Assembly: GCA_021324655.1 (NCBI GenBank)
Contig: JAJPIP010000016.1
Location: 1-57,918, forward strand
Length of the DNA stretch: 57,918 nucleotides
Origin: Pseudomonadota bacterium
Lineage (GTDB): Bacteria > Chloroflexota > UBA5177
Direction of reading: 5' to 3'
Of this stretch, positions 49,768 to 53,398 are shown piece by piece; position 1 is the stretch's first letter; every line of letters starts with the position of its first letter. The position numbers and the translations under genes are program-made. The notes beneath the pieces were generated by a model, which saw nothing but the letters and a program-made list of their open reading frames with translations, did not search any database and was not told where the DNA came from.

Positions 49768-49800
49768 GTTAGAACACATGTTCGCAACAGGAGGTGCACG

Positions 49801-50220
49801 ATGGCTCAGACACAGACCTCGCCCACGGAACGGAGCGACGATCTCCAGGCGTCGCCGATGATGCGACATCTGATGGATGCGCTGAAGGACGGCAAAGACA
49901 TCGGCCACTATGGGCGGCTGGTGTTCGTCATGGTGGCGCGGTTCTTCCTTCCGGAAGAGAAGATTGTCGCTTTGCTCGCCAAAGATCCGGACTTCAGCAA
50001 GGAAGACGCGAAGGCGCTGTATGCGGAGGTGAAGGCGCACGGCTACAACCCACCGAAGGAGAACAAGATCCGGCAGTGGCAGCAACAGCAGGACTTCCCA
50101 ATCTGTCCCAGCGCCGACGATCCCAACGCCTGCGATGTGTACCAGACGCTACGCTTTCCTGATGAGGTGTACGACAACATTGAAGAGTTCTGGGAGCAGC
50201 GGGTCGAGGCACAGAGCTAG
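49801..50220 (+). CDS. Hypothetical protein, possibly related to the C-terminal domain of primase large subunit
   Basis: This 139-aa soluble protein has an excellent ribosome site (CAGGAGGTG). The order HYGRLVFVMVARFFLPEEKIVALLAKDPDF, shown here by its cores HYGRLVFVMVARFF and IVALLAKDPDF, then YNPPKENKIRQW, FPICPSADDPNAC and RFPDEVYDN recalls the helical iron-sulphur domain of archaeal/eukaryotic PriL (His-Arg helix, pDF, PPsC, late Cys). Only two cysteines are present instead of four, so a cluster is unlikely. I cannot assign a function. It is probably expressed from the sigma-54-type promoter upstream and ends at a strong hairpin. Confidence 0.65.
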   Translation: MAQTQTSPTERSDDLQASPMMRHLMDALKDGKDIGHYGRLVFVMVARFFLPEEKIVALLAKDPDFSKEDAKALYAEVKAHGYNPPKENKIRQWQQQQDFPICPSADDPNACDVYQTLRFPDEVYDNIEEFWEQRVEAQS

Positions 50221-50256: not shown

Positions 50257-50392
50257 TCACTGTTCGGGACAAATGTCCCAATAAACGGACCGATTGACAC
50301 TATTCCGTCCTCCGGCCGCGGGGTATGCTGCCGTTCGTGGTTCCGATCCGGTTCTCCTCCCACCGGATCACACCGCCACGGAGGTGAGACAT

Positions 50393-50701
50393 ATGCCCCA
50401 CGACGCGGACCAGCACCCCGGCTCTGACTTCTACCTCGGCCGTCTCCTGCCTGACGATCGCGATGCTTTCCGGGCCGCCTCGCCCGATGCGGATCTCTCC
50501 CACGAAATCCGCCTCCTGCGCGCGATCCTCTCGCACCTGGCCGAGGACTTCTCGTCCAATGGACGCATCCTGGCTCAGATGCTCGGCCTGCTGGTCCGCG
50601 CCGTCTCCCTCCAATCGCGCCTCGCCGACGGGCCGTCCGATCTCTCGGCCGTGCTGCGTGATGCCGCCCGCGACGTCCTGGAGGGGAACGGCGATGACTG
50701 A
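50393..50701 (+). CDS. Small hypothetical protein of the portal cassette
   Basis: The 102-aa acidic, helical protein (DADLSHEIRLLRAILSHLAEDF, ILAQMLGLLVRAVSLQSRLAD) has GGAGGTGAG upstream. It is unrecognised. Small helical proteins upstream of portal genes can be terminase small subunits, but no DNA-binding motif is visible and no terminase large subunit is present, so I do not make that claim. It overlaps the next gene by 8 bp. Confidence 0.6.
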   Translation: MPHDADQHPGSDFYLGRLLPDDRDAFRAASPDADLSHEIRLLRAILSHLAEDFSSNGRILAQMLGLLVRAVSLQSRLADGPSDLSAVLRDAARDVLEGNGDD

Positions 50702-50885
50702 GTCGCTGCCGCGCCTCGTCATGCTGGAAGAGATCACCGAGCCGTCCCTCCCGCTGCGGCCGGACGACCCCAATCCGCCGGTGCGCACCTTGCGCGACCG
50801 CCGCGGCAACCGCTACGTGTTGCTCTCTGTCGCCGGCTACCTGCGCCTGCTCTCCAGAAAGGAGGACGACCATGGGGTTGCGTGA
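50694..50885 (+). CDS. Very small hypothetical protein of the portal cassette
   Basis: The 63-aa protein (LPRLVMLEEITEPSLPLRPD onward to GNRYVLLSVAGYLRLLSRKE) lies between the 102-aa gene and the portal gene and overlaps both (8 and 14 bp). The overlap chain and a shared codon style support it as real. The function is unknown. The ribosome site of the portal gene (AAAGGAGG) is inside its 3' end. Confidence 0.5.
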   Translation: MTESLPRLVMLEEITEPSLPLRPDDPNPPVRTLRDRRGNRYVLLSVAGYLRLLSRKEDDHGVA

Positions 50886-52284
50886 GCTCTACCGCACCCA
50901 GATCGCCCGCGAGCGGCAGCTCCGCGAGCAGGTCTCCGCCCCCGTCACCACCGAGGACTGGTTCTGGGGCCGCATCGGCACCACCGGCTCCGAGGAGGAC
51001 TACTTCTGGCGCCGCCTCTCCGACAACTGGACCCAGAAAGACGTCCTCCCCTCCACCTACCTCGAGATCCACAACCAGGTCTACGAGGCCTACAACGCCA
51101 ATCCCCTCGCCAACGCCATCGTCGAGATGGGCGTCAACTTCACCCTCGGCGACGGCCTCCAGATCGATGCCCGCCACAAGAAGGTCCAGCGCCTCATCGA
51201 CGCCTTCTGGCACGACCCCGACAACCACATGGCGCTCCGCCAGTTCGACATCGCCACCGAGCTCTCCCTCTACGGCGAGGTCTTCATCCGCTGCTTCGTC
51301 AACCCCTACTCCGGCCATCTCAAGATCGGCCAGATCGATCCCTCGCTGATCGACGAGATCGAGTGCGATCCCGACAACATCGAAAAGCAGATCCGCTGCC
51401 ACCGCCGCTCCCTCGGCCAGACCAACGCTCCCACCACCACCGTCACCGCTCCCACCCCCAACCCCGGTCCCGGCGTGATGCAGGGCTCGATCGAGCCCGA
51501 CCCCAAGTTCGTCAACGGCGAGTGGTTCGCCATGCCCGACGAGGTCATGCACTTCGCCATCAACAAGGTCGCCAACGCCAAGCGCGGCAAGAGCGACCTC
51601 GCCACCATCCTCCCCTGGCTCCGGCGCTACAAGGACTGGCTCATCGACCGCGTCCGCATCAACAAATACAAGTCCGCCTTCCTCTGGGACGTCACCCTCA
51701 CCGGCGCCAACCGCCAGGCCATCGAGGCCAAGATGATGGAGTACGCCCGGCCCCCCGAGCCCGGCACCGTCCTCATCCACAACGAGTCGGAAGAGTGGAA
51801 AGCCGTCCAGCCCCTGATCGACGCCGGCAACGTCGCCGCCGACGGCCAGGCCATCAAGATCATGGTCGCCATGGGCGCCGGCCTGCCCGAGCACTATCTC
51901 TCGGAAGGGGGCGACGTCAACCGGGCCACCGCCAGCGAGATGAGCCTCCCCGTCCTCAAGCGCTACCAGCGCCGCCAGGACATGCTGGCCCACATCTTCC
52001 GCGCTCTCCTCGATCGCGCCATCGCCGAGGCCCAGGACGCCGGCACCCTGCCCCGCACCATCGACACCACCTACACCCTCACCTTCCCCGAGCTCCGCAC
52101 CGAGGACTCCTCCGACATCGGCATGGGCGCCTACCACATGAGCCAGGCCCTCCAGGCCGGCGTCGGACTCGGCATCATCTCGCGCGAGACCGCCACCGCT
52201 CTCTTGATCGGGGCGACGCGGACAGACGTTGATGTGCGCGAGGAACTGGAGCGGATCGCGGCGGAGCGAGGAGACGGCGCATGA
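50872..52284 (+). CDS. Phage portal protein
   Basis: The 470-aa protein has the layout of a phage portal: EIHNQVYEAYNANPLANAIVEMGVNF, in short the NPLANAIVEMGVNFTLGDG segment near residue 75-95, then ALRQFDIATELSLYGEVFIR, MHFAINKVANAKRGKSDLAT, and MGAGLPEHYLSEGGDVNRATA. Portals form the dodecameric DNA gate of the capsid. Codons from 50880 to about 52200 end almost always in C (for example GCCTACAACGCCAATCCCCT), unlike neighbouring genes and unlike the last 80 bp of the gene itself, suggesting recent transfer or mosaicism. No terminase, protease or capsid gene is nearby. AAAGGAGG precedes ATG 50872. Confidence 0.8.
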   Translation: MGLRELYRTQIARERQLREQVSAPVTTEDWFWGRIGTTGSEEDYFWRRLSDNWTQKDVLPSTYLEIHNQVYEAYNANPLANAIVEMGVNFTLGDGLQIDARHKKVQRLIDAFWHDPDNHMALRQFDIATELSLYGEVFIRCFVNPYSGHLKIGQIDPSLIDEIECDPDNIEKQIRCHRRSLGQTNAPTTTVTAPTPNPGPGVMQGSIEPDPKFVNGEWFAMPDEVMHFAINKVANAKRGKSDLATILPWLRRYKDWLIDRVRINKYKSAFLWDVTLTGANRQAIEAKMMEYARPPEPGTVLIHNESEEWKAVQPLIDAGNVAADGQAIKIMVAMGAGLPEHYLSEGGDVNRATASEMSLPVLKRYQRRQDMLAHIFRALLDRAIAEAQDAGTLPRTIDTTYTLTFPELRTEDSSDIGMGAYHMSQALQAGVGLGIISRETATALLIGATRTDVDVREELERIAAERGDGA

Positions 52285-52706
52285 CGGAAGTCGTCGCACC
52301 AGACCTGAGTGCAGCGATTGCTTCTACCGAGACACGGCTGCTACGCGCTCTCAACGAAGGTCTGCAACAGGTGAGCAGTGCTCTCACCAACCTGTCGGAG
52401 ATGCACCACCGCGCCATGCTCGAGCAGGAGCGGCGCAACGCCTCATTCGCGACGGTGGAGCGCCTTGATGCGCTGGCGGTGCGGGTGGATAGCGTCAACG
52501 CCGCGCTCTCCGGCGTGTGTCAGAGATTGGAGAACGTCGAGGCGGGCCTGGCGCGGTCCGAGCGGGAGTCCTCCTCGCTGCGCCGCCAGCTGAATGAGAG
52601 TTCGGTCTCGTCGCTCACCACGGCGACCGGCTATCTCGTCACGGCCCTGCTGCTCATCGGCTCGAACATTCTGACCTTTATCCTCGCCCACGTCGTCGTC
52701 CACTGA
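52281..52706 (+). CDS. Coiled-coil protein with C-terminal membrane segment
   Basis: The 141-aa protein is a long helical or coiled-coil region (about residues 10-105; LDALAVRVDSVNAALSGV, LENVEAGLARSERESSSLRR) followed by one hydrophobic segment (TATGYLVTALLLIGSNILTF) and a short tail. This resembles holin-like or anchored tail proteins of phages, but no family is recognised. The ATG overlaps the portal stop (ATGA) and the stop overlaps the next start (TGATG). Confidence 0.65.
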   Translation: MTEVVAPDLSAAIASTETRLLRALNEGLQQVSSALTNLSEMHHRAMLEQERRNASFATVERLDALAVRVDSVNAALSGVCQRLENVEAGLARSERESSSLRRQLNESSVSSLTTATGYLVTALLLIGSNILTFILAHVVVH

Positions 52707-53191
52707 TGATCAACGTTGTCTGCACGATTCGTGACTACAACGCGGCCGACGATACCTGCACGGTCGAGATCCAGGGCGTCGGGATCATCGATCTGTGGGT
52801 CGACGGCGTGGCAGTCGCACCCACCGTCTCTCGCGGCTACCTGGTGTACGGGGCAAGCGGTGTACTCTCGCTGCCCGATCAGCATCGTCTCTGTGAGGCA
52901 TCGCTGATCCAGGTCGTGCCTCCCACGAACCTGCAAACGCTGCAGGGTGGGAGCGTGCAGAGAACGCTTACCGGGCGGACCCTGATCACGACCGACGGCA
53001 CCGGCAACGGCAGCGCCACCGTGACCTTCAGCAGTGCCTTCACCACCGCACCCACCGTCAGCCTGCTGGGTGATAACCTGGCCGGTCTCACGGTCTCCAC
53101 CGTCAGCACAACCGGCTTCACCGCTGCGCTCACCAAGCCGGGTCTGGTCCACGCCTATGTGTGGTTCTCCTGGAGCGCCACCGGGACATAG
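52706..53191 (+). CDS. Phage-like beta protein with H-type-lectin-like C-terminus
   Basis: In the 161-aa protein, residues 1-75 look like an OB-type or baseplate-associated beta domain (VCTIRDYNAADDTCTVEIQG, SRGYLVYGASG). Residues about 95-160 resemble the H-type lectin domains on phage tail tips (TVTFSSAFTTAPTVSLLG, TTGFTAALTKPG, VWFSWSATGT). It may bind carbohydrate or be a receptor-binding protein. It is coupled to the preceding gene by TGATG and ends the cassette. Confidence 0.55.
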   Translation: MINVVCTIRDYNAADDTCTVEIQGVGIIDLWVDGVAVAPTVSRGYLVYGASGVLSLPDQHRLCEASLIQVVPPTNLQTLQGGSVQRTLTGRTLITTDGTGNGSATVTFSSAFTTAPTVSLLGDNLAGLTVSTVSTTGFTAALTKPGLVHAYVWFSWSATGT

Positions 53192-53209: not shown

Positions 53210-53398
53210 GGCCCTCACCCCCAGCCCCTCTCCCATTGCGATGGGAGAGGGGAGATGTGGTGCGGAGTGGGCTGGAGAAATCAATGTCCAGCTCGCTGAA
53301 GGGCGTGCTGATAGCGGTACCTTCCCCTCAAGATTCCCCCTCGCCCACCGCAGTGGGAGAGGGGGTAGGGGGTGAGGGCCAGCAGGGGGTGAGGGCCA
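53210..53398. repeat. Inverted-repeat element with internal hairpins
   Basis: GGCCCTCACCCCCAGCCCC at 53210 is mirrored by GGGGGTAGGGGGTGAGGGCC ending at 53380. Inside the left arm CCCCTCTCCCAT pairs with ATGGGAGAGGGG (53225-53252). An extra GGGGGTGAGGGCC follows, ending near 53398. It is non-coding, although an open frame reads through it into the next gene. Confidence 0.6.

Follow-up and report, generated by a model that had tools for sequence, protein, structure and literature searches.

Gene transfer agents (GTAs) are defined, in the sections of the published description drawn on here (PMC9662315), as particles made of caudoviricete-derived proteins, which package mostly random host DNA and deliver it to other cells; their genes are endogenised, often at multiple loci, the head is too small for the agent's own genome, and inheritance is mostly vertical, with co-diversification with the host. 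Functional GTAs are named there for alphaproteobacteria, a deltaproteobacterium, a spirochete and an archaeon, while a search of the open-licence PMC literature, judged by titles and abstract openings, found no description of a Chloroflexota GTA or of a system such as the one reported here. The DNA in question is the whole contig JAJPIP010000016.1 (57,918 bases, referred to as the window or C27) of assembly GCA_021324655.1 (G000), a Chloroflexota metagenome-assembled genome (MAG) of 3.8 Mb in 114 contigs (96% complete, 2.4% contamination). It carries a cassette consisting, in order, of two small genes (g50393 and g50694), a portal gene and genes for a coiled-coil/transmembrane protein and a lectin-like protein, with host genes flanking both sides within the contig.

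This cassette is probably one part of a vertically inherited, dispersed and co-regulated phage-derived particle system working like a GTA. The computed features on which this reading draws are the parts themselves, their separation, a shared promoter module, a codon signature of the portal and of a second contig (C71), purifying selection and divergence that tracks the host. A sequence-only reading of the window had described the same five genes, which holds good, and had called the cassette isolated, without terminase, protease or capsid. That absence is true of the window, where no integrase, terminase, protease or capsid was seen by eye among the ORFs of 46-58 kb, but not of the genome, in which contigs C71 and C2 carry the other parts. 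With a capsid from a relative as the query, a match was obtained at G000:C71:65327-67729, within an 816-codon ORF for a prohead-protease/capsid fusion (PF25209, 4e-47; NCBIfam protease/MCP fusion, 3.6e-64, below its cut-off). The fusion gene is followed by an SGNH-hydrolase-like gene (identified by eye), then by a conserved gene of 145 codons that has homologues at six further loci, a holin gene (phrog_1299, 1.9e-17) and further genes up to the contig end. Two of these, which come after the holin gene and use the same C-rich codons, encode a DUF1003 membrane protein (3.6e-26) and, in an ORF without an end, a C1-type-peptidase-like protein (L047 16637-17780). A relative's terminase used as the query located the terminase of G000 at C2:75203-76600, adjoining a 672-codon tail-hub-like gene, and the same pair is found in G002. 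The C2 terminase is 67% identical to those of the family members G003 and G002, and was missed by a PF03237 search, which found no terminase in G000 although it gave matches in 6 of 14 control genomes. Residues read as catalytic are invariant in alignments of 12 terminases (A3) and 11 capsid fusions (A2), including the terminase motor and nuclease residues as assigned by reading. A C-terminal terminase fragment also lies in a short ORF on C59 (L049 8604-9068), the contig that bears a GerE-type regulator gene. Beyond its fibre gene, the IMG/VR contig L019 has homologues of the first C71 operon genes, so that an ancestral run of genes probably broke at the point directly following the fibre gene.

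The three loci are joined by a promoter module, GGGACAnnTGTCCC-N14-(T/A)TGACACTA. It stands before g50393, before the first C71 gene and before the C2 tail gene, where the palindrome is present as a half-site. Scanning of G000 and six relatives at up to 3 mismatches, with the reversed module as the control, gave five matches in G000 (0, 0, 2, 3 and 3 mismatches), the best three being the system loci on C27, C71 and C2, and no match to the reversed module across the 7 genomes. The relatives gave two weak matches only (one in G001 with 2 mismatches, one in G003 with 3), so that the module looks private to G000. At up to 2 mismatches of 14, the 1.37 Mb scanned held the system loci and one poor match only; by chance, the window would be expected to contain 0.11 copies of the operator palindrome when up to 1 mismatch is allowed. 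The two weaker matches in G000, with 3 mismatches each, precede a PrimPol-helicase gene (C57; PF09250, 3e-44) and a gene for a 124-aa GerE-type regulator (C59; PF00196, 2e-14); a matrix derived from the core sites, which themselves reach 75-78, gives them 12.0 and 13.8, and they are possible module sites. It is hardly credible that C71 and C2 are contaminant contigs, leaving the cassette truly alone in its genome: the MAG does consist of 114 contigs with 2.4% contamination, but a near-identical module stands on three contigs, with none of that quality in the six relatives, C27 and C71 share a codon signature, the C2 terminase matches those of family members as given above, and the same dispersal is seen in single-contig genomes.

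The codon signature had been noticed in the sequence-only reading as a run of C-ending codons in the portal up to about 52200, followed by reversion, and it is borne out by measurement. In portal codons 1-437, third-position C (C3) reaches 0.72, whereas the background mean is 0.429 (sd 0.053, maximum 0.563; 219 genes in 20 other stretches of G000). Over 442 four-fold portal sites, the change-point falls after 52197, with C at 0.895 before and 0.444 after it (log-likelihood ratio 54.5 versus at most 9.7 in 2000 shuffles). C3 of the last 34 codons is below that of the body in 26 of 30 portals, that of G000 included; hence, part of the drop is general among portals. The style recurs on C71, in the capsid fusion (0.65) and the four genes after it (0.63-0.72), and no gene among the 219 of the background is as C-rich as the portal or the capsid gene. 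It is absent from the neighbouring genes, as well as from the terminase (0.45), the tail protein (0.49), the fibre (0.51) and the coiled-coil gene (0.40) of G000. The peculiarity of G000 lies in these ordinary codons of the coiled-coil and lectin genes, since related genes are C-rich in L018, L019, G002 (coiled-coil) and G001 (lectin); a foreign origin of the two genes was considered and rejected, as they have orthologues in relatives. Four-fold C in the portals of relatives is 0.80-0.84 in L018, L019 (both IMG/VR) and G003, 0.71 in G002, and lower elsewhere. Translational optimisation of the ribosomal kind was rejected as the cause, because EF-G (C3 0.47), RpoB (0.45), RpsG (0.41) and the ribosomal-operon genes of C98 (about 0.35-0.46), all named by reading their translations, lack the style.

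Among 400 Chloroflexota genomes, the portal was found in 64, the terminase in 122 and the capsid in 61. A terminase accompanies the portal in 58 of the 64 portal genomes, a capsid in 57 and both in 54; six portal genomes are without terminase and seven without capsid, four capsid genomes are without portal, and the terminase occurs alone in 62. The parts can be widely separated on the chromosome: the terminase is about 0.4 Mb from the portal and capsid in the single-contig G067, 1.7 Mb away in contig coordinates in the single-contig G175, and separated by about 0.39 Mb on one contig in G051 and G147; in G351, G299 and G320, the parts fall within about 17 kb. By eye, G051 and G059 have the same host neighbours both at the portal/capsid locus and at the terminase locus. 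Portal distances follow those of RpoB (Mantel r 0.877, 30 genomes; the largest of 2000 permutations gave 0.46 and 0/2000 reached the observed value), also within family f18 (r 0.674, 19 genomes, 0/2000 permutations); the test is one of distances and covers the portal only, and nearest neighbours disagree in places, the G115 portal, for instance, being closest to those of another genus. Furthermore, the portal is under purifying selection, in that 12 of 13 close pairs have a dN/dS of 0.06-0.17; the remaining pair, at 0.38, includes the split portal of G067.

These observations bear on two readings in which the genes would be ordinary prophage material. In one, a decayed prophage had its pieces scattered by rearrangement and is now functionless; it would account for parts that lie apart, for the terminase fragment on C59, for broken copies in some relatives and for the REP-like repeats beside the cassette. 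It is rather unlikely given intact ORFs in G000, the low dN/dS, a promoter module that three loci have retained in common, and the joint retention of all three parts in most portal genomes. The other supposes a host-restricted temperate phage family, with an own prophage in each genome that was badly assembled in the MAG G000. Compact clusters in G023, G036, G299, G320 and G351, the IMG/VR contigs with the genes in one run, and a distant portal in a Microcystis phage are what such a family would leave, but host genes stand on both sides of the cassette within one contig, the terminase lies far off in the single-contig G067 and G175, both loci keep the same host neighbours in G051 and G059, divergence follows RpoB, and no deposited phage is closer than 30%; this family is accordingly unlikely. 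At C27, neither integrase nor att sites were seen and the parts are on three contigs, the picture being incomplete at the C71 contig end; a tRNA search of the window gave none. Since G000 has a single portal copy, the cassette is no shortened version of a complete prophage elsewhere in the genome. Of the origins proposed in the sequence-only reading (domesticated, satellite, or recent mosaic import), domestication agrees with the parts found elsewhere in the genome, the shared module, the host-tracking divergence and the purifying selection. A phage satellite is disfavoured by the lack of integrase and replication genes beside the cassette, by dispersed single-copy loci and by a capsid and terminase of the genome's own; recent import is unsupported, because orthologues in host relatives diverge along with RpoB and the C-rich style is common to the C71 capsid operon.

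A few observations concern portals and capsids with breaks. Five genomes have a portal gene interrupted at roughly one conserved position (model positions 325-357; in G363, about 270-349), namely G067 (L164, L165; G067:C1:1040345-1083316), G278, G345, G363 and G083; the halves lie 20-225 kb apart on the same strand in the first four and on two contigs in G083. A large serine-recombinase-like gene sits at the G067 break, and the portal may serve as an integration site for mobile elements. In genus g32, one TGA lies inside the capsid match in four of the six members with such a match (G076, G156, G220, G307; none in G036 and G116), which may represent decay or recoding. The small genome G012 (1.5 Mb; L187 6676-11203) has a terminase and apparently truncated portal and tail genes, with no capsid match.

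For the preferred reading of a domesticated, dispersed particle system, the following course is proposed. The host lineage would have kept a phage-derived system for long, broken into several chromosomal loci: C27 as the connector/adsorption part (portal, coiled-coil/transmembrane protein, tail fibre), C71 with the prohead-protease/capsid fusion, virion-like proteins and holin, and C2 with the tail-hub-like protein and terminase. The three loci would be fired together, since each has the same operator/promoter module, by a regulator acting on the palindrome, perhaps downstream of DNA-damage signalling. A head would then be assembled from portal, capsid and terminase, and DNA pumped in; the fibre and tail protein would bind the recipient, and the holin would release the particles (an amidase gene stands alongside in the compact relative G023). 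Particle formation, a cargo of host DNA as in GTAs, and the mode of induction are thus what we infer from the gene content. Packaging of the full gene set is unlikely, as the particles could hardly hold genes that lie at separate places, a property shared with GTAs. The components might instead make a domesticated particle or partial assembly with a job other than DNA transfer, such as a lytic weapon or a protein shell. A lectin-like fibre and a holin would suit such a role, and DNA transfer is itself deduced; nevertheless, this is quite improbable, as the portal and a terminase with conserved motor and nuclease residues have been kept, and these are needed by DNA packaging only.

Set against the published definition, three of six properties are seen: portal, terminase, protease-capsid, holin and tail proteins match phage families (a correspondence of genes alone), the genes are endogenised at several loci in G000 (C27, C71, C2) and likewise in G067, G175, G051 and G147, and the portal co-diversifies with RpoB. 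The remaining three properties need experiments, and the system is therefore said to work like a GTA, on the strength of its sequences, and is not filed as one. It is like RcGTA and its relatives (Rhodogtaviriformidae) in its caudoviricete-type head and packaging genes, several endogenised loci and host co-diversification, so far as the published description goes (PMC9662315). In the part of a second source used here (PMC9765227), codon bias in alphaproteobacterial GTAs is uneven and strongest in the capsid and tape-measure genes, comparable to the bias towards head genes in G000. Unlike RcGTA, the present system belongs to another phylum, has protease and capsid fused in one gene, keeps portal, capsid and terminase loci apart, and uses a private palindrome module; the likeness is set by published description, not by sequence comparison. 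The same holds for the Brachyspira GTA (Brachygtaviriformidae), whose genes are described as likely dispersed over several loci (PMC9662315), in an unrelated host. The C71 protein matches prohead protease/major capsid fusion families (NF045541, phrog_4523, phrog_133) over most of its length, yet it lies below the NCBIfam cut-off (217 vs 525 bits) and is chromosomal and part of a dispersed system. The closest deposited phage portal, of Microcystis phage Mae-JY22 (PP438414.1; 94% query cover), is only 30% identical and belongs to a phage genome rather than a dispersed system. Closer are IMGVR_UViG_3300022557_000093 (L018) and 3300047160_019974 (L019), with the same portal, coiled-coil, lectin, capsid order, 62-63% portal identity and the same C-rich codons; in contrast to G000, they hold one contiguous run and are called viral by the database, though they could represent host loci of this type.

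Operators in relatives point to a further refinement. The motif TAGAAN6TTCTA, which we take to resemble a LexA-type SOS box, has 8 distinct occurrences across 1.45 Mb of scanned loci (listed 15 times because some loci overlap), 6 of them directly upstream of system genes (the G003 portal operon, the G003 terminase, G004, G032, and G023 twice). The other two are in G225, where the motif precedes a Cys-rich gene some 8 kb past the terminase, and in G175, about 640 nt from the terminase and probably by chance. Promoter comparison within G005, G051 and G059 yielded short shared words only and is not taken as evidence. It is conceivable, though doubtful, that these loci represent an ancient, independently domesticated Chloroflexota GTA lineage with a two-step switch, an SOS-type box followed by the C59 regulator on GGGACAnnTGTCCC. 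In the first step, DNA damage would relieve the SOS-type box (TAGAACN4GTTCTA-like, at the system promoters of G003, G004, G023 and G032); in G000, the genes for the C59 LuxR/GerE-type regulator and the C57 PrimPol would carry such a box plus the weak module copy. In the second step, the C59 regulator would fire the three unlinked particle operons via the private palindrome. In this view, operators differ between genera, whereas G000 and G003 each show one operator at all of their separated loci examined. Separately, a GerE/LuxR-type regulator gene (PF00196, 1e-16) lies head to head with the portal in G018 (L022 7893-8981), and a Cys-rich HTH-like protein (CPLPxC) beside the G012 genes resembles the protein encoded after the G225 TAGAAC box (L190 19292).

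Several points weigh against a dispersed, GTA-like system. It is known here from genes alone, and its distribution is patchy (336 of the 400 genomes gave no portal match). Copies with stops or breaks occur, as in the G004 and G067 portals and several capsids. Host-restricted prophages could likewise track the host phylogeny, L018 and L019, with portal to capsid in one run and no terminase, could be real phages, and the C71 cluster is cut by its contig end, beyond which phage-like genes would be unseen. Finally, the codon style differs from that of ribosomal genes and is without explanation.

The features of the window are collected in Table 1. The small-terminase role of g50393 remains a guess, because its helical structure model is of low confidence (pLDDT 69.6); homologues lie upstream of the portal in G003, G001 and L019, weaker relatives upstream of the terminase in G023 and G032, and Pfam and PHROGs searches gave no match for either small gene. 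The model of the lectin-like protein (pLDDT 85.8) is similar to knobs of pyocin tail fibres and to H-type lectins in the PDB, with a pyocin tail fibre as the best match (7.6e-4, the sole one at E <= 0.001), and to phage tail fibres or H-type lectins among viral models, with 29 matches at E <= 0.001. The gene at 49801 matches NCBIfam NF002589 (1.5e-4, far below cut-off) and Pfam PF04104 (7.9e-4), with no homologue among the fetched loci of relatives. The box upstream of it is not significant alone, GAACN4GTTC having 6 matches in 427 kb of G000 against about 4 expected. A part for the REP-like repeats in the dispersal of the loci is speculative.

Table 1. Features of the portal cassette and its upstream region (positions in the window)
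Feature	Position	Strand	Remarks
LexA-type-like box, possible system part	49770..49784	.	Upstream of gene 49801
Gene just upstream of cassette	49801..50220	+	Weak PriL (primase large subunit)-like match; membership uncertain
Palindromic operator GGGACAAATGTCCC	50266..50279	.	Common to C71 and (half-site) C2 loci
Promoter element TTGACACTA	50294..50302	+	14 nt after palindrome; spacing identical at all three system loci
-10-like TATGCT	50324..50329	+	24 nt after TGACA; same spacing at C71 (TAGGCT) and C2 (TATGAC); putative promoter role
g50393, first operon gene	50393..50701	+	102-aa protein, helical throughout; may be the small terminase subunit or an accessory protein of the head (guess)
g50694, role not assigned	50694..50885	+	63-aa protein; 75% identical over 24 residues to a stretch directly before the L018 portal
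Portal protein	50872..52284	+	phrog_10963 1.4e-39; ORF intact; C-ending codons to 52197
Coiled-coil protein with C-terminal hydrophobic segment	52281..52706	+	45% identical to gene after portal in G002; coiled coil/TM read from sequence
Tail-fibre/spike-like protein, beta N-terminal domain and H-type-lectin-like knob	52706..53191	+	Pfam H_lectin 0.005, below cut-off
REP-like inverted repeats	53210..53380	.	3' end of cassette; blastn copies within window and beside C59 regulator gene

The PF03237 case illustrates that 'orphan' portal genes can belong to larger machines missed by family models. If the reading is true, Chloroflexota would add, with a particle system that is dispersed and vertically inherited, a further independent origin of the GTA type. 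It would also show how head genes spread over a chromosome can still be maintained as a single regulon. The module, the box and the operon heads would provide sequence handles for work on culturable relatives.

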